The notes under the pieces were generated by a model that saw only the letters and a program-made list of their open reading frames with translations, was not told where the DNA came from and made no database searches. This document shows positions 19,651 to 36,417 of a stretch of 38,215 nucleotides of DNA, piece by piece. This DNA comes from a virus, in the IMG/VR virus record IMGVR_UViG_3300044695_003444, positions 1 to 38,215 of that record. The stretch is one strand, 5' to 3'. Numbering within the stretch: the stretch's first letter is position 1; each line of letters opens with the position of its first letter. The translations under genes were made by a program, and so were the position numbers.

Positions 19651-19920
19651 TTAGCGCCGGCGCATGCGCTCGAGGACCGAGCGGGCAAGCTGCCCACCCT
19701 CGGCCACCGTGCGCAATTGCTGGCGAAAGTCGTTGACCAAAGCGCACTGCATCCAAGCGCGCTCGCGTACTTGCACATCGGCAGTGCCTGACTTGCGCCA
19801 GGTCTCGACGTAATGGGCTTCCATGCGCTCGAGCATCTCGAGCAGTATCGGGTCCTCAAGCAGCGCCTTGGCGTGCTCGCCACGGCGTGCCTCTTCAGCC
19901 AGGTCGCGCTCTTCATTCAT
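19651..19920 (-). CDS. Small conserved protein between portal and scaffold
   Basis: An 89-residue helical, charged protein (ALLEDPILLEMLERMEAHYV) ending in RVLERMRRR-type basic sequence. It overlaps the portal stop as ATGA, so it is translated with the portal. Genes of this size and pattern are common at this spot in podoviruses, but no function is known to me. Confidence 0.65.
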   Translation of the reverse strand: MNEERDLAEEARRGEHAKALLEDPILLEMLERMEAHYVETWRKSGTADVQVRERAWMQCALVNDFRQQLRTVAEGGQLARSVLERMRRR

Positions 19921-22232
19921 TGCGCGGGTCCTTGCATGTCAGTGGGGGGTTGCATGGCCTGCTGCTGCATGGCCTGCTCTTGCATGGCTTGCTCTTGCAT
20001 TGCCTGCTGCATGGCCTGCTCTTGCATCGCCTGCTGCTGCAGCTCGGCCTGGCCCATGGCCGTGGCGTGGGTCTGCTCGGCCTTGATCATTTCTCGATCG
20101 CGGGCCATCAGGGCCTGAATCTGCGCGGTGTCGACCGTCGACTGATACTTGAGCTCGATCTCGCGAGCACGCAGCATCACGTCGGCCTCGATGCGATCAC
20201 GCTCGCGGTCGTCCATGGCCTGCGCCTTGACCCGCTCGAGCTCCAACTTCGCAGCATCTGTGGCAATCGATGCGCGAATCTTGTCCGCCTCAACTTGCGC
20301 AAGGATCTGCGTCGGGTCTGTTGGTGCCGGGGGCGGCGGGGGTGGCGGTACTTGCGACGGGTCAGTGAAGAACTGCGATGCGTCCTTGAACCCTGCGAGC
20401 TCGACCATCTTGGCCAGCGTGTTGCGATACTGCGCCAGGCCCGCCAGTTGATTCTGCGGACCCATGGTGGCCATGATCTGCTCTTGCTTTGCAGCGACAG
20501 AACTTAGGAAGGCCATGCGGTCTTCTTCAGAGCCACGCCCGAGCGCCACGTTCACTGCGACGTCCATCTGAGCGTCCCAGGAGCGCGGGTCAATCTGCAC
20601 CCACTGGTTGCGCAGGCGCACCATGCGAGGCTTGTCCTGGTTCTCAATGATCAGCTTGAGAATGCCGCGCATGAGCCGCTTCATGCCGCCCTCTGCAAAG
20701 ACTCGGGCGATCGTCTCAACCTGCGCCTGCGCAGCGCTGATCGTCGCGGCCACAGCAGCCTTCGTGCTGGACTGCATCGCATCGGCGTCCAGGCCTGCAG
20801 CCGCCTTGCTGATGCCTGTCCTGTTTTCTTTGATCTCGTCCAGGTACGCCAGCACTGGCATCGCCGACTGACCAACGAACGGCGAACTCAGCGGCTGCAC
20901 CATGCCTGGCGCAGATGCGCGGATGATCCCGCCGACCTCGTTGTTCAAGACGTCGGCCATGGCCACCTGGCCCTCGACCACCACAGTGCGCGGATGGATC
21001 GACTGGGAGAGCGAGTCCAGCATGTTGCGGATCACGTGCGTCTTGATCCGCGCAATGTCCTGCACGACGTCCGCAGGGCACATCCCAAAAACCGTATGTG
21101 GCTCGGGATCGGGACAGAACAGCGCGAAAGGCCGCTCATCGACCGGCTCGTTGCGATAGACCTTGTACCCAGAGCCCAGCGTGCAGACGCGCCTTAGTTC
21201 AGCAATGCCGTCTCCGTCGTAGTCGACCAACACATAAGCCTCGACGTACAGAATCCGCCGCGTTGAGTCGTCCTGCGTGTCCGCTTCGAGGTAGGTCGCC
21301 TGCGGGTTGCGCGCGAACGTCTCGTCGTTGGTCAGGAACTGGTCATCGTCCCCACCAATCTCGTCGAGTTCATCAGGGTCGTAGCCCAGTGCCACGAGCT
21401 CCGACACGGTGGCCATCTGGCGGTGCGCAACGAGCGTTGCGTCTTCCAGGCTGCGCGCCCGGCGGCTGATGATGAATTCCTCGGGCGGCAGTGCCTCGAT
21501 GCGGGCCACGCCGCGCTTGATGCGCCGGGTGACCATGACGTCGCTCAGCATCTGCACTGGCGGCATCTCAGCGGGCATTGCACCCTGCTGCGCCATCTGC
21601 TCGGCCTGCATCTGCATCGCCTGCGCGGCCGCCTGGTCGGGGTACTGGGCGACTACCGATAGCTCGATGTCGGCATCGGCCAGCAGAGCGGCTACTGACT
21701 GCTCATCGAGCCCGGTGTGGTGGCTCGTCTTGACTTGCTCAGAGACGTCCCACCACCACTTCACGATCCCGCTTTTGCGTACCAGGCCGTCTTTGAACGC
21801 CGAGTGCAAAACGCTGAAACCAGGGTTGTCCTGGTTTAGTACGACGCTATTGATGTAGTCGGTGGCTTGCTCAGCGGCCTGGACGTCTTCAATCGACTGC
21901 GGGATGAACTCGCACACCCGCTCAGACGAAAAGAACACCCGCAGCAGGGACGGCATGAGCGCCGCCACGGTGTCGCGCACGTCCATGGAGACAACTTGGC
22001 TGCGCCCCTCTTCCTCGTCGCCGTACGGCTTGCCGAAGTAGCGGTTGGTCGCCTCTGCGCGGGCCGGCCCGATCTCGGAGTCGATGTAATCGACTGCATC
22101 GCTGATCTTGCTGGCGACTATCGCCTCGAACTCGGCGTCGTCCATGCCGCCGGGCATAGCCTGCTCGGCAATCTCAGAAAGACTGAGGTCGCCGTAGCCT
22201 TCGCGCTCGTCAGATTCGCCCGTTTCCAGCAC
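19917..22232 (-). CDS. Portal protein
   Basis: A 771-residue portal of the podovirus SU10/P22-like kind; it would form the dodecameric vertex through which DNA is packaged. Seen: YIDSEIGPARAEATNRYFGK (about 49-68), RDTVAALMPSLLRVFF, GLVRKSGIVKWWWD, and the clip/stem region with SLSQSIHPRTVVVEG. A Pro run (PPPPPPP) is followed by a long charged helix, and the last ~60 residues are Gln/Ala/Met repeats encoded by 15-base DNA repeats. It starts with GTG, with GAGG eight bases upstream. It is the first gene after the three-palindrome region at 22282-22346. Confidence 0.9.
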   Translation of the reverse strand: MLETGESDEREGYGDLSLSEIAEQAMPGGMDDAEFEAIVASKISDAVDYIDSEIGPARAEATNRYFGKPYGDEEEGRSQVVSMDVRDTVAALMPSLLRVFFSSERVCEFIPQSIEDVQAAEQATDYINSVVLNQDNPGFSVLHSAFKDGLVRKSGIVKWWWDVSEQVKTSHHTGLDEQSVAALLADADIELSVVAQYPDQAAAQAMQMQAEQMAQQGAMPAEMPPVQMLSDVMVTRRIKRGVARIEALPPEEFIISRRARSLEDATLVAHRQMATVSELVALGYDPDELDEIGGDDDQFLTNDETFARNPQATYLEADTQDDSTRRILYVEAYVLVDYDGDGIAELRRVCTLGSGYKVYRNEPVDERPFALFCPDPEPHTVFGMCPADVVQDIARIKTHVIRNMLDSLSQSIHPRTVVVEGQVAMADVLNNEVGGIIRASAPGMVQPLSSPFVGQSAMPVLAYLDEIKENRTGISKAAAGLDADAMQSSTKAAVAATISAAQAQVETIARVFAEGGMKRLMRGILKLIIENQDKPRMVRLRNQWVQIDPRSWDAQMDVAVNVALGRGSEEDRMAFLSSVAAKQEQIMATMGPQNQLAGLAQYRNTLAKMVELAGFKDASQFFTDPSQVPPPPPPPAPTDPTQILAQVEADKIRASIATDAAKLELERVKAQAMDDRERDRIEADVMLRAREIELKYQSTVDTAQIQALMARDREMIKAEQTHATAMGQAELQQQAMQEQAMQQAMQEQAMQEQAMQQQAMQPPTDMQGPAQ
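19951..20037 (-). repeat. 15-bp tandem repeats in the portal 3' end
   Basis: Five 15-base units of the type TGCATGGCCTGCTCT (plus strand) and one 12-base unit lie head to tail. On the coding strand they give repeated QAMQE/QAMQQ near the portal C-terminus. Copy number could vary without a frameshift, because every unit is a multiple of three. Confidence 0.85.
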
Positions 22233-22253
22233 CGCGCCGCCTCAAAAGACGGA

Positions 22254-22272
22254 CTCACCCCTATGGCTAGGG
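22254..22272. other. Hairpin in the portal leader
   Basis: The arms ACCCCTA and TAGGGGT lie around the 4-base loop TGGC (within 22256-22273), between the palindromes and the portal start. On the plus strand a short TTT follows. It could shape the portal mRNA leader or act as a weak rightward terminator. Confidence 0.35.
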
Positions 22273-22281
22273 GTTTTCCCG

Positions 22282-22346
22282 TTGCCTATATTTTAGGCAA
22301 TCAGTGCTTATAAATTAAGCAGGTGCTCTGCCTATTTTTTAGGCAG
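22282..22346. promoter_or_regulatory. Three tandem 19-bp palindromes upstream of the portal gene (candidate late operator)
   Basis: Three sites share the form NTGCYTA-N5-TARGCAN: TTGCCTATATTTTAGGCAA (22282-22300), GTGCTTATAAATTAAGCAG (22304-22322) and CTGCCTATTTTTTAGGCAG (22328-22346). Centres are 22 and 24 bases apart, close to two helical turns, so bound dimers would lie on nearly the same face. The stretch is AT-rich and sits in the 132-base gap between the large terminase stop and the portal start. I see only a weak leftward promoter (TTAATT-17-TAAAAT) inside it. A dimeric regulator of head and tail gene expression is the likely ligand. Confidence 0.7.
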
Positions 22347-22364
22347 TTGGGTCAGAAGTGAGGG

Positions 22365-23786
22365 CTACACCACCCCAGGGATGCGCCTCAGGATCGGTTG
22401 CGACCAGTTCTGGCTGTGCTGACGGCCATAGAGCGCTGTGGCTGCGTTGCCAGCGAAGGTCAAGCACAGTGCGTCAGCCATGTCGGGGGAGCCCAGGCCG
22501 CGCCTGCGCATCTCGTCCTTGGATTCCACCTTCATCTTCCCGTTGCTGCTGAACGAGAACCGTGGGCCGACCAACTCGGCGAATAGCTGGTCGTCTCGCG
22601 GGATGCGGCAGTCCCGTGCCTCGAGCCATGCCTTCACGCGAAACCACAGTTCAGCCCGCAAGTTGATGTAGGTCGTCCCCATGGCGGGTGATTCGCTGAC
22701 GTTGATCCCTCGAGCGGGCAGCTTGAGCTCCCGCAGTCGGTCCACCACCCCAGCCCCCAGGCCGATGGAGTCCACCAGAATCTCGACGGGCCTAGCGTTG
22801 CTCGGTGTGGCCTCGTACTCGGCAACGATCGCCCCAGTGAGTTGCATAAGGTCTAGGCCGGCCCACTTCCGTATCTCATGCACTACGTTCGCCTGGCGCT
22901 TGCAAAGGGCCGACTTGTCGCTGCCGAACCGCGCCACGTCCAGGCCCCAGACGGTTGGGGCAGTGGGTGAGGGCTTGGTGTCTCGGACCTGGGCACTGTC
23001 CACGAGCTCGACAGGGATAACGGTGTCGTCGTCCGCCAAGGGGAACTCGCCCAGGACCCTGATCCTGTAGGCGTTGGACTCCTCCCCATACCGGGACTTC
23101 ATCTCGTTGACGTAAGCCTCGGACACCCGCGGTGAGTCGATGCAACTCACCCGCCTGGTCCACCACTCCCCTTTCAGCCGGTGGTGGGTCTCGTAGAAGT
23201 AGCCGGACGAGCGCGTCGGGTTGCCCAGGAGGATGGTCGTCGCGTTATGCCCAGACATGCTGCCCGCAGCGGCCTCGAACACCGCCTCGGGCACGCCGCT
23301 GGCCTCGTCTGCCACTAGCAAGACATTCGGGCTATGCACACCAGCAAGTGCTTCTGGCTGCTCGGCTCGAGACGTCCTGGCACTGATAAACGCCTCTGAG
23401 GCGCTCGACTTCAGTTCCACCCTGTCGTTCTTAACCTCCAGCAGTTGGTTAAGCGCGGGTGGGAGCTCCTTGGCCCAGCGCTTGAGCTCTGCGAAGAGCG
23501 CATCGAAGAGTTGCGCTGAGGTCGGCGCGGTCACGATCACCTTGCAGGGGTACCGGGTGAGCACGTACCAGAGCATGGCCCAACTGGTCACCGCGGTCTT
23601 GCCCACGCCGTGGCCAGAGCGCACTGATATCCGCCGCTCGCCAGTGGCAATGGCCATCAGCAACTCGGCCTGCCAGGTGTCTGGCTCCACGTTCAAGACC
23701 TCCTTCACAAAGGACACAGGGTCTCGCCTGTAGGCCTTGATGAACGGGATGAACGGGTTCGGTGGGGTGGTCTGGGGTGCGGTCAC
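22365..23786 (-). CDS. terL: Terminase large subunit
   Basis: A 473-residue DNA-packaging motor. The ATPase half has Walker A SGHGVGKT (57-64) and Walker B VLLVADE (155-161), with the coupling motif LLGNPT (187-191 region). The nuclease half shows acidic residues D283 (WGLDVARFGSDKS), D339 (ILVDSIGLGAG) and D435/D438 (SPDMADAL). It would translocate DNA through the portal and cut the concatemer. It starts with GTG, overlapping the serine recombinase stop as GTGA. Overall pattern is of the P22/Sf6-like headful group, which agrees with the circular map, but the packaging mode is not proved by sequence. Confidence 0.92.
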   Translation of the reverse strand: MTAPQTTPPNPFIPFIKAYRRDPVSFVKEVLNVEPDTWQAELLMAIATGERRISVRSGHGVGKTAVTSWAMLWYVLTRYPCKVIVTAPTSAQLFDALFAELKRWAKELPPALNQLLEVKNDRVELKSSASEAFISARTSRAEQPEALAGVHSPNVLLVADEASGVPEAVFEAAAGSMSGHNATTILLGNPTRSSGYFYETHHRLKGEWWTRRVSCIDSPRVSEAYVNEMKSRYGEESNAYRIRVLGEFPLADDDTVIPVELVDSAQVRDTKPSPTAPTVWGLDVARFGSDKSALCKRQANVVHEIRKWAGLDLMQLTGAIVAEYEATPSNARPVEILVDSIGLGAGVVDRLRELKLPARGINVSESPAMGTTYINLRAELWFRVKAWLEARDCRIPRDDQLFAELVGPRFSFSSNGKMKVESKDEMRRRGLGSPDMADALCLTFAGNAATALYGRQHSQNWSQPILRRIPGVV

Positions 23787-24478
23787 TTGGCCTCGCTGCG
23801 CTTCATCACTCGGGACACGGTCGTGGCCTGCCAGGCACCACCACCACTTGGCGTCGGGATCTGGCGGTCGTTCAACGCAGCGGCGATCGCCCGGTAGCTG
23901 GCGTGGCCATCTCCAATGACCTGCTCGATCAGCACCCGCAGGTCACCAGCCCGCCGGTCGGCGGCGCTGCGCTTGCCAGCCGCACCAGCCTCGATCGTGG
24001 CGCGGGTCGGCTTGTGGCCTCGGTCACCACCCAGTACCACGCCACGGGCTCGGGCCTGGACCAGTGCCGCCTTGGTGCGCTGGGAGATCAGACCAGCCTC
24101 CAACTCAGCCACCGACGCCAGTTGCTGCAGGATGAAGGTGGGGACCGGGCCGCTTCCCAGGTTGGGGAGGTCCAGGAACACAACCTGCACACCCGACTGA
24201 AGGATTGTGCCTAAAAAATGAGCATTGCGTGCCAGCCGGTCCAACTTGGCCACCACCAGGGTCGCGCCATGCACACGACACAATGTCAGTGCCTCGGCCA
24301 GCTTGGGCCTGGTGGTGCTGCGACCCGACTCGACCTCCTCGAGCTCTGCCAGGGGTGGCCACCCTTTGCCGGCCAGGTAAGTGCGAACTGCAGATTGCTG
24401 CGCTGCAACACCCAGACCCGAATCGCCTTGCTCTTTGGTGCTGACTCGGTAGTACGCGACATGCTTGGTCGATTGCAT
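23783..24478 (-). CDS. Serine recombinase (resolvase/invertase family)
   Basis: A 231-residue site-specific recombinase. The catalytic domain begins VAYYRVSTKEQ with nucleophile S13, and continues GLGVAAQQ, ESGRSTTRP, LVVAKLDRLARNA (conserved Arg pair) and the long helix LASVAELEAGLISQRTKAAL. The C-terminal ~50 residues (YRAIAAALNDRQIPTPSG...WQATTVSRVMKR) are a small HTH. Start is ATG at 24478; an upstream extension reads through a promoter-like region and is rejected. It overlaps the large terminase start as GTGA and follows the small terminase, an odd place for a recombinase. A tyrosine integrase is present elsewhere, so this enzyme may resolve multimers, invert a segment or be a former mobile gene. 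No short inverted target repeats are evident beside it. Confidence 0.88.
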   Translation of the reverse strand: MQSTKHVAYYRVSTKEQGDSGLGVAAQQSAVRTYLAGKGWPPLAELEEVESGRSTTRPKLAEALTLCRVHGATLVVAKLDRLARNAHFLGTILQSGVQVVFLDLPNLGSGPVPTFILQQLASVAELEAGLISQRTKAALVQARARGVVLGGDRGHKPTRATIEAGAAGKRSAADRRAGDLRVLIEQVIGDGHASYRAIAAALNDRQIPTPSGGGAWQATTVSRVMKRSEAK

Positions 24479-24508
24479 TTCGTTGCTCGATTGGTGATCG
24501 TTGAACGA

Positions 24509-24538
24509 AGTGTAACACCTTGCTGGTTGTGTGTGCAA
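24509..24538 (-). promoter_or_regulatory. Sigma70-like promoter for recombinase and large terminase
   Basis: On the minus strand TTGCAC (24533-24538), an 18-base spacer, and TACACT (24509-24514) precede the recombinase ATG by about 30 bases. Each hexamer has 4 of 6 consensus bases. An AAAAAATTTTTT tract lies directly upstream. It would let recombinase and terL be expressed apart from terS. Confidence 0.5.
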
Positions 24539-24671
24539 AAAATTTTTTGGACAGGGCAAGTTGCTGGGTGTGGGATACCGCGCACACACCCGCCCCGGCA
24601 CTCGCCCCACGGCGGGGGGTTCCGCGCCCGCGGCCAGCCGCTGAGCCCTTCAGCCGTCGGTTACGCATCCG
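24539..24671. other. Intergenic stretch between small terminase and recombinase
   Basis: About 130 bases, very GC-rich except for AAAAAATTTTTT next to the promoter. It holds no frame with a ribosome site. The tract is where a pac site or recombinase target could lie, but I see no clear symmetric element. Confidence 0.4.
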
Positions 24672-25250: not shown

Positions 25251-25589
25251 TCACCACCCCAACTCACGCCTCAGGTCGTCCGCCGAGATCGAGAAATCCT
25301 CCCCCTCGAGCTCACCCAGATCCTTGAGGTCCTCAAGCCTTCGCCGTGCCGCGGCACGCACCTTGATCCCAGGCGCGTTGTTCCTGCTCCCCTCGACCTC
25401 GGCCTTTGCCCTTGGCGCTCTGGCCCTCGGTACTCGCGCCTCGCTCACCAGCCCGTCCCTCACCACCTCGACGGTCGTCACCCGAGCCTTGCACCCCAGG
25501 CACTCCCGTCGGCGAGCAATCCACTCGCCAGTCCCCCTGGTCTCCAGCACTCGGGTCATCACCCCACACGCTCGGCAATTCAGCACCAC
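25251..25589 (-). CDS. Zinc-ribbon protein resembling the NrdR N-terminus
   Basis: A 112-residue protein with two cysteine pairs, C5-x2-C8 and C30-x2-C33, in a frame like the NrdR zinc ribbon (TRVLETRGTGEW...ARRRECLGCKARVTTVEVV). The ATP-cone domain of true NrdR is absent; instead there is a basic Ala/Arg region (about 50-85) and an acidic C-terminus (LGELEGEDFSISADDLRREL). The start is GTG, with GAGGG upstream. It lies between the origin-like repeats and terS. It probably binds DNA or RNA and may regulate phage genes. An anti-host or late-gene regulator role is a guess. Confidence 0.65.
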   Translation of the reverse strand: MVLNCRACGVMTRVLETRGTGEWIARRRECLGCKARVTTVEVVRDGLVSEARVPRARAPRAKAEVEGSRNNAPGIKVRAAARRRLEDLKDLGELEGEDFSISADDLRRELGW

Positions 25590-28069: not shown

Positions 28070-28119
28070 TTGCCTTGGAGGCAGTTAGCCAAGCAATTTG
28101 GAATTTGCTTTTAAGGCAA
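28070..28119. promoter_or_regulatory. Left operator region between HTH regulator and repressor
   Basis: Two 15-bp palindromes, TTGCCT-TGG-AGGCAG (28070-28084) and TTGCTT-TTA-AGGCAA (28105-28119), lie in the divergent gap; a weaker half site (AGCAA at 28092-28096) lies between them. They match the pair on the other side of the repressor gene. No convincing -35/-10 pair was found for either direction, so promoter position is open. The sites would mediate autoregulation of the repressor and control of the leftward operon. Confidence 0.7.
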
Positions 28120-28936: not shown

Positions 28937-28996
28937 TTGCCTTGCAGGCAACCCATTTTTTCCTTTAGCATCACACCCATGTTGCCTTTAACGCAC
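28937..28996 (+). promoter_or_regulatory. Right operator and early rightward promoter
   Basis: TTGCCT-TGC-AGGCAA (28937-28951) is a near-perfect 15-bp palindrome, and TTGCCT-TTA-ACGCAC (28982-28996) is a weaker second site. A possible promoter, TTGCAG (28942-28947), 18 bases, TAGCAT (28966-28971), lies between, with the expected start near the second site. A repressor at the first site would cover the -35 region. The promoter hexamers are poor matches, so operator assignment is firmer than promoter assignment. Confidence 0.6.
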
Positions 28997-35996: not shown

Positions 35997-36184
35997 GCGA
36001 GAACACCTTGATGCCAGCCCTAGCCGGCCTGGCCTACTGGCGCGATCCAGCGAAAGAACCACCACCGCGCGGGATGAAGTTGCTGGTGCTGACAAGTGGC
36101 GGCGTAACCGTGATTTCGGACTGGGTGACGGACAGCAATTTCGTTGCGTGGTCACCGATGCCGAAGAAGGGGATTAAAGAATGA
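35993..36184 (+). CDS. DUF551-like small protein
   Basis: A 63-residue protein with the pattern YWRDPAKEPPPRGMKLLVLT ... WVTDSNFVAWSPMPKK, which matches small phage proteins of DUF551 type (W.....PP..G..VLV). It is coupled at both ends by ATGA. Function unknown. Confidence 0.65.
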   Translation: MSENTLMPALAGLAYWRDPAKEPPPRGMKLLVLTSGGVTVISDWVTDSNFVAWSPMPKKGIKE

Positions 36185-36417
36185 GCCTGATGCTCACCGC
36201 ATACCTGATGGAAAAGTACGGCCCGCGTTTGGGCACCGATGAACTGGCAGAGGTACTGGGCATCAGCCCGCGCACGCTTGCGAACAAGGTCTACAGGTGC
36301 GAAGTTCCGCTCCCTGTCTACAAGGATCAAGGCAAGGTTTGGGCTGACTGCAGGGATGTTGCCGAGTACCTGGATGAGTGCAGGGCTAAGGCGAAGGTAG
36401 AAGCGACTCAGGCTTGA
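36181..36417 (+). CDS. HTH protein, possible excisionase or activator
   Basis: A 78-residue protein, the last rightward early gene, convergent with the integrase gene (32-base overlap). The HTH TDELAEVLGISPRTLANKVY (about 19-38) is followed by PLPVYKDQGKVWADCRDVAEYLDE, resembling MerR/excisionase-type and PrtN-like proteins. Place beside the integrase makes a recombination directionality factor plausible; a transcription activator is the alternative. Confidence 0.7.
   Translation: MSLMLTAYLMEKYGPRLGTDELAEVLGISPRTLANKVYRCEVPLPVYKDQGKVWADCRDVAEYLDECRAKAKVEATQA

Follow-up and report, generated by a model that had tools for sequence, protein, structure and literature searches.

At the lambda operators OR and OL, three dyads of about 17 bp are spaced 22-24 bp apart, and at lambda cosB, which combines IHF sites with terminase R sites, sites for a host bending protein lie beside the terminase genes. 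IHF helps lambda terminase. Host Fis acts on phage and mobile DNA at lambda att and at the Hin/Gin/Cin enhancers, where its sites serve site-specific recombination, and lambda itself encodes a Fis mimic, NinH (PMC7166090). In unrelated alphaproteobacterial phages, clusters of sites for the host master regulator CtrA, with EMSA support, occupy intergenic gaps or a terminal repeat and are gained and lost between close relatives (PMC9437464).

Here we analysed a stretch of viral DNA (38,215 bp, referred to in its whole length as the window), in which three palindromes form an array between the large terminase (terL) and portal genes. With Fis as the regulator, this array would be a parallel to the CtrA clusters, whose intergenic position, occurrence in unrelated phages and turnover between close relatives it shares; the regulator (Fis-type) and the motif differ, and the clusters described here, as read from sequence, lie mostly beside packaging genes. 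As at lambda att and the Hin/Gin/Cin enhancers, host Fis would sit on phage DNA, but the array is kept in phages whether or not they have a recombinase, and it is missing from a relative of the window phage that has one. Like NinH, it would represent a phage use of Fis-type DNA recognition; NinH, however, is a protein, and a search of the array phages for an encoded Fis (PF02954, HTH_8) gave no match above the cut-off in 35 records. The geometry is that of OR/OL, but the array is not beside a repressor gene, its motif is also found in host promoters, and both its sequence and its spacer are unlike those of the window phage's own immunity-region palindromes. Many array phages resemble lambda cosB in carrying candidate host bending-protein sites beside terminase genes, whereas the window array lies 3' of terL and its binder, motif and function are putative.

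Three exact palindromes lie between the terL and portal genes

Direct reading of the window sequence confirmed three palindromes directly 3' of terL, each a 17-mer of the form TGCYTA-N5-TARGCA, spaced by 22 bp and then 24 bp (Table 1). They had been described as 19-bp palindromes; the three dyads are present, but the outermost base pair of the middle 19-mer (G..G) is non-palindromic, so that the dyad common to the three sites is 17 bp. No other zero-mismatch copy exists in the whole window. Since matches with up to three mismatches were not enriched (32 observed, 28.6 expected), the signal consists of three exact clustered copies. The strict Fis-type core GNNYAW5TRNNC matched the window four times, at the three array sites and at 24209, whereas a first-order Markov simulation (200 runs) gave a mean of 0.34 matches per window and in no run placed more than 2 within 70 bp. 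A role of the fourth match is doubtful.

Table 1. Coordinates of the array, its flanking genes and other features of the window.
Feature	Position	Sequence	Remark
Candidate Fis-type site 1	22283..22299	TGCCTATATTTTAGGCA	19-mer TTGCCTATATTTTAGGCAA, 22282-22300
Candidate Fis-type site 2	22305..22321	TGCTTATAAATTAAGCA	22 bp from site 1; 19-mer GTGCTTATAAATTAAGCAG, 22304-22322
Candidate Fis-type site 3	22329..22345	TGCCTATTTTTTAGGCA	24 bp from site 2; 19-mer CTGCCTATTTTTTAGGCAG, 22328-22346
Fourth Fis-core match	24208..24224	TGCCTAAAAAATGAGCA	1 mismatch to array motif; inside serine recombinase gene
Hairpin	22257..22274	ACCCCTAGCCATAGGGGT	minus strand; between array and portal; separate feature from array
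Portal, SU10-type (PF23899 SU10_portal)	19917-22232		minus strand; flanks array; candidate regulated operon
terL, large terminase (minus strand)	22365-23786		flanks array
Serine recombinase gene	23783-24610		lodged between small and large terminase
NrdR-type zinc-ribbon protein	25251-25589		upstream of terS; regulator role possible
Immunity-region palindromes	28070-28084, 28105-28119, 28937-28951	TTGCYT-N3-ARGCAA	around cro/cI-like genes
Small HTH protein	36181-36417		near integrase; excisionase-like (phrog_1300)

The nearest relatives keep the flanking genes and lack the array

The nearest terminase relatives, L004 (83%) and L005 (87%), have the gene orders terS-recombinase-terL-portal and terL-portal, respectively, and no TGCYTA-type site was found in the stretches compared; their terL-portal gap holds just a short hairpin, of which the window carries its own version. 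The array was thus gained in the window lineage or lost in these relatives. Absence of the palindromes from relatives with conserved flanking genes was one half of what the original prediction had named in advance as its refutation, and this is what the two nearest relatives display. In L004 the serine recombinase (75%) is likewise present between terS and terL, so this recombinase system does not always include the array. No portal relative among the viral contigs carried an array, nor did the stretches fetched around relatives of the CI-like repressor. Among named phages, a blastn search detected no array; SAR116 phage HMO-2011 had only a single exact site.

The window helicase shares 71% identity with its counterpart in Bordetella phage BPP-1, whose gene layout is similar and which has no such site, and the DNA polymerase is about 47-51% identical to polymerases of Acidovorax, Pseudomonas and Achromobacter phages. 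The terL relatives in 399 Burkholderiales genomes reached an identity of only about 35%, and a search of 369 genomes from the class for the CI-like repressor gave two distant matches, uninformative on the host. By the helicase and polymerase similarities, the host of the window phage is likely a betaproteobacterium.

Tandem arrays recur in unrelated phages, mostly 5' of terminase genes

A search for pairs of sites in tandem, with N5 left free, retrieved 89 viral-contig stretches versus only 15 stretches in a 257-Gb bacterial collection. Among 48 distinct viral arrays, N5 was almost entirely A/T in spite of being unconstrained in the scan, and site spacings clustered at 20-23 and 29-31 bp. Thirty viral records had 2-6 sites each, mostly in one place, and the reversed control pattern matched in just one record; there is essentially one cluster per phage. 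Most arrays lie 5' of terminases from unrelated families (phrog_2, phrog_38, phrog_9), the nearest about 10 bp and the farthest about 4 kb away. When 35 records, many of them related so that the counts are not independent, were checked for terL, about 21 arrays were 5' of it within about 4.3 kb, a few were 9-16 kb away and one was 3'. The window array, 3' of terL, is therefore an exception.

No DNA-binding family was common to 14 large array-bearing phage records and the window, which suggests that the reader is a host protein. As expected for clusters of host-regulator sites of the CtrA type, the arrays are clustered, intergenic, present in unrelated phages and subject to turnover among relatives. 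The motif strings as tried returned no paper in the literature searched, which does not prove that the motif is undescribed.

One record of 48,743 bp has an array close to each contig end, in opposite orientations (L028, 14238-14274; L049, 45-121), reflecting either inverted ends or an assembly artefact.

The motif fits the Fis consensus and marks dusB-fis promoters

All three array sites fit the published Fis consensus, GnnYAnnnnnTRnnC (PMC10380432), and have an A/T-only core (W5), as almost all viral arrays do. TGCYTA-W5-TARGCA matched 119 times in 300 Burkholderiales genomes versus 4 times for the reversed control, and 28 versus 20 times in Bacteroidales, which are not known to have Fis (totals are our tallies of the scan tables). 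We fetched 41 loci with an exact site from the Burkholderiales scans; in 11 of them the site was directly upstream of dusB, in most cases with fis behind dusB. Matches with up to three mismatches were present in 12 of 23 scored dusB upstream regions, compared with 13 of 460 windows drawn at random within those loci. The motif is thus found at the fis promoters of plausible hosts, where Fis autoregulation is expected. The 79-aa protein that follows dusB in L185 is a Fis homologue: its best model matches were Fis and then NtrC, although just below the curated cut-offs (score of 113 bits against a cut-off of 122), and Fis structures were also its best structural matches. On the other side, E. coli Fis tolerates sites more degenerate than the strict TGCYTA-type motif.

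Since Burkholderiales have the motif upstream of dusB-fis and alphaproteobacteria have it before ntrB/nirB, a host protein of the Fis/NtrC type is indicated as the reader. Taken with the fit to the consensus, this makes it very probable that the array binder is Fis or a close Fis-type protein, and we give a probability of roughly 0.6 to the array being a group of host Fis boxes that serves a regulatory or architectural function of some kind. TGCYTA-W5-TARGCA is also a candidate Fis box for Burkholderiales, upstream of dusB-fis.

Nineteen of the 119 Burkholderiales copies come from a single 2.4-Mb genome (G190); most of them read TGCCTAATTAATAGGCA or the complement of this sequence, and they may be a repeat element.

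A possible growth-phase-sensitive element of the late operon

For the window we favour an element of the late operon, given that the array stops 50 bp short of the portal gene. The array would offer three high-affinity-type candidate sites to the host DNA-bending protein Fis (Fis/NtrC-type helix-turn-helix); lying about two helical turns apart, these would align three Fis dimers along almost one face of the helix, with bending of the DNA as the result. Fast-growing cells are rich in Fis, which would then modulate transcription into the portal-scaffold-capsid genes, making the array a growth-phase-sensitive element. This transcriptional role is put forward tentatively, at somewhat less than even odds: the scan of the gap found no sigma-70-like promoter in window positions 22150-22450, and a portal-operon role may be wrong, given that arrays in other phages are mostly 5' of the terminase. 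More generally, the distribution of the arrays suggests a recurrent phage reading of host growth state, with Fis-type boxes repeatedly gained near packaging genes or operon junctions.

Some other phages, mainly from one related group, have a perfect TTGACA/TATAAT promoter on the terminase side of the array, 130-380 bp away. In L018, L036, L039, L053 and their relatives, sigma-70 promoters with a perfect 12/12 match are 150-265 bp from the array and read from it toward the terminase.

Alternative readings of the array

The original prediction had seen in these dyads a lambda-like triple operator in front of the virion genes, through which a phage regulator would repress or time the late operon; the candidates are the CI-like repressor, an 89-aa HTH protein and the zinc-ribbon protein. 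The phased array is indeed there, its three 17-bp dyads following one another every two turns or so (22 and 24 bp from centre to centre), and site 1 shares its half-site TTGCYT with the palindromes around the cro/cI-like genes, which from their position are probably the immunity operators (one of them lies downstream of cI). At these probable operators, however, the half-sites are separated by a spacer of 3, not 7; the CI relatives lack an array in the stretches fetched; and the motif recurs in phages without a common regulator as well as in host dusB-fis promoters. The differing immunity palindromes, together with the lack of a DNA-binding family common to array phages, argue against a phage protein as reader, and we consider this part of the prediction quite improbable. 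The neighbouring serine recombinase gene brings up another possibility, that the array is accessory DNA of the recombinase, either as a res site or as the kind of recombinational enhancer, dependent on Fis, that Hin/Gin systems have. That gene contains a further Fis-core match, and the outer sites are 46 bp apart, near the roughly 48 bp of known recombinational enhancers; but the array is not kept with the gene, as L004 shows, and most array phages retrieved have no match to the window recombinase at all, so that such a function is very improbable. Hardly credible is a reading of the sites as RNA hairpins that act as translation or processing signals in the late transcript. Minus-strand RNA does fold into three 6-7-bp hairpins (z -4.3), but so would any palindromes of this kind. 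Across phages the asymmetric sites face both ways relative to the terminase, the sense RNA having a G-U-compatible stem at 90 sites and a C-A mismatch at 66; on this ground we rejected the hairpin reading. In addition, the motif occupies DNA promoter positions in host genomes.

Two further readings keep a host protein of this type on the array. Fis or a relative could do another job there, building a bent nucleoprotein element for packaging (cos/pac-like) or for a replication origin, which we regard as unlikely yet worth serious attention. The position of arrays 5' of terminases of unrelated families is consistent with it, as are arrays in several large records that coincide with strand switches and GC-skew minima or are close to them, but GC skew tracks gene strand anyway, and the window array is 3' of terL and missing from relatives with the same terminase. 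Within 600 bp of the sites there are 49 strict DnaA boxes, against 4 in the remaining 635 kb of the same loci, but only about five phage groups have such boxes beside their arrays. Arrays are also slightly more frequent near contig ends, an effect (P about 0.01-0.04, with related contigs counted) that we judged too weak to use as cos/pac evidence. By extension, one dedicated Fis-type box array could be a general packaging- or replication-initiation element in many unrelated phages of Fis-/NtrC-bearing hosts; we think this unlikely, though far from fanciful, and, if true, it would tie virion production to host growth rate via a nucleoid protein. Alternatively, the reader could be host NtrC or another NtrC-family activator rather than Fis, linking the phage to nitrogen status. 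Fis and NtrC are kin, an ancestral relationship having been noted (PMC7166090), and paired motif copies precede ntrB and nirB in alphaproteobacteria, with a sigma-54-like promoter at nirB. Against this, the Burkholderiales motif marks dusB-fis, the relatives of the window phage point to a betaproteobacterial host, and phage arrays had no enrichment of nearby sigma-54 promoters (none good near the window array), for which reason NtrC acting with sigma-54 was rejected; NtrC thus appears an improbable reader, and a host Fis box cluster remains our preferred reading.

Perfect DnaA boxes (TTATCCACA), often clustered, adjoin the arrays in L041, L047, L076, L029, L045, L062, L070, L074, L084, L095, L022, L032 and L044. 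These loci are candidate phage replication origins.

In marine alphaproteobacteria, paired sites 28 bp apart lie upstream of ntrB (facing ispDF) and of nirB (L110, L114, L115, L117, L120, L121; L107, L118), and are candidate NtrC boxes.
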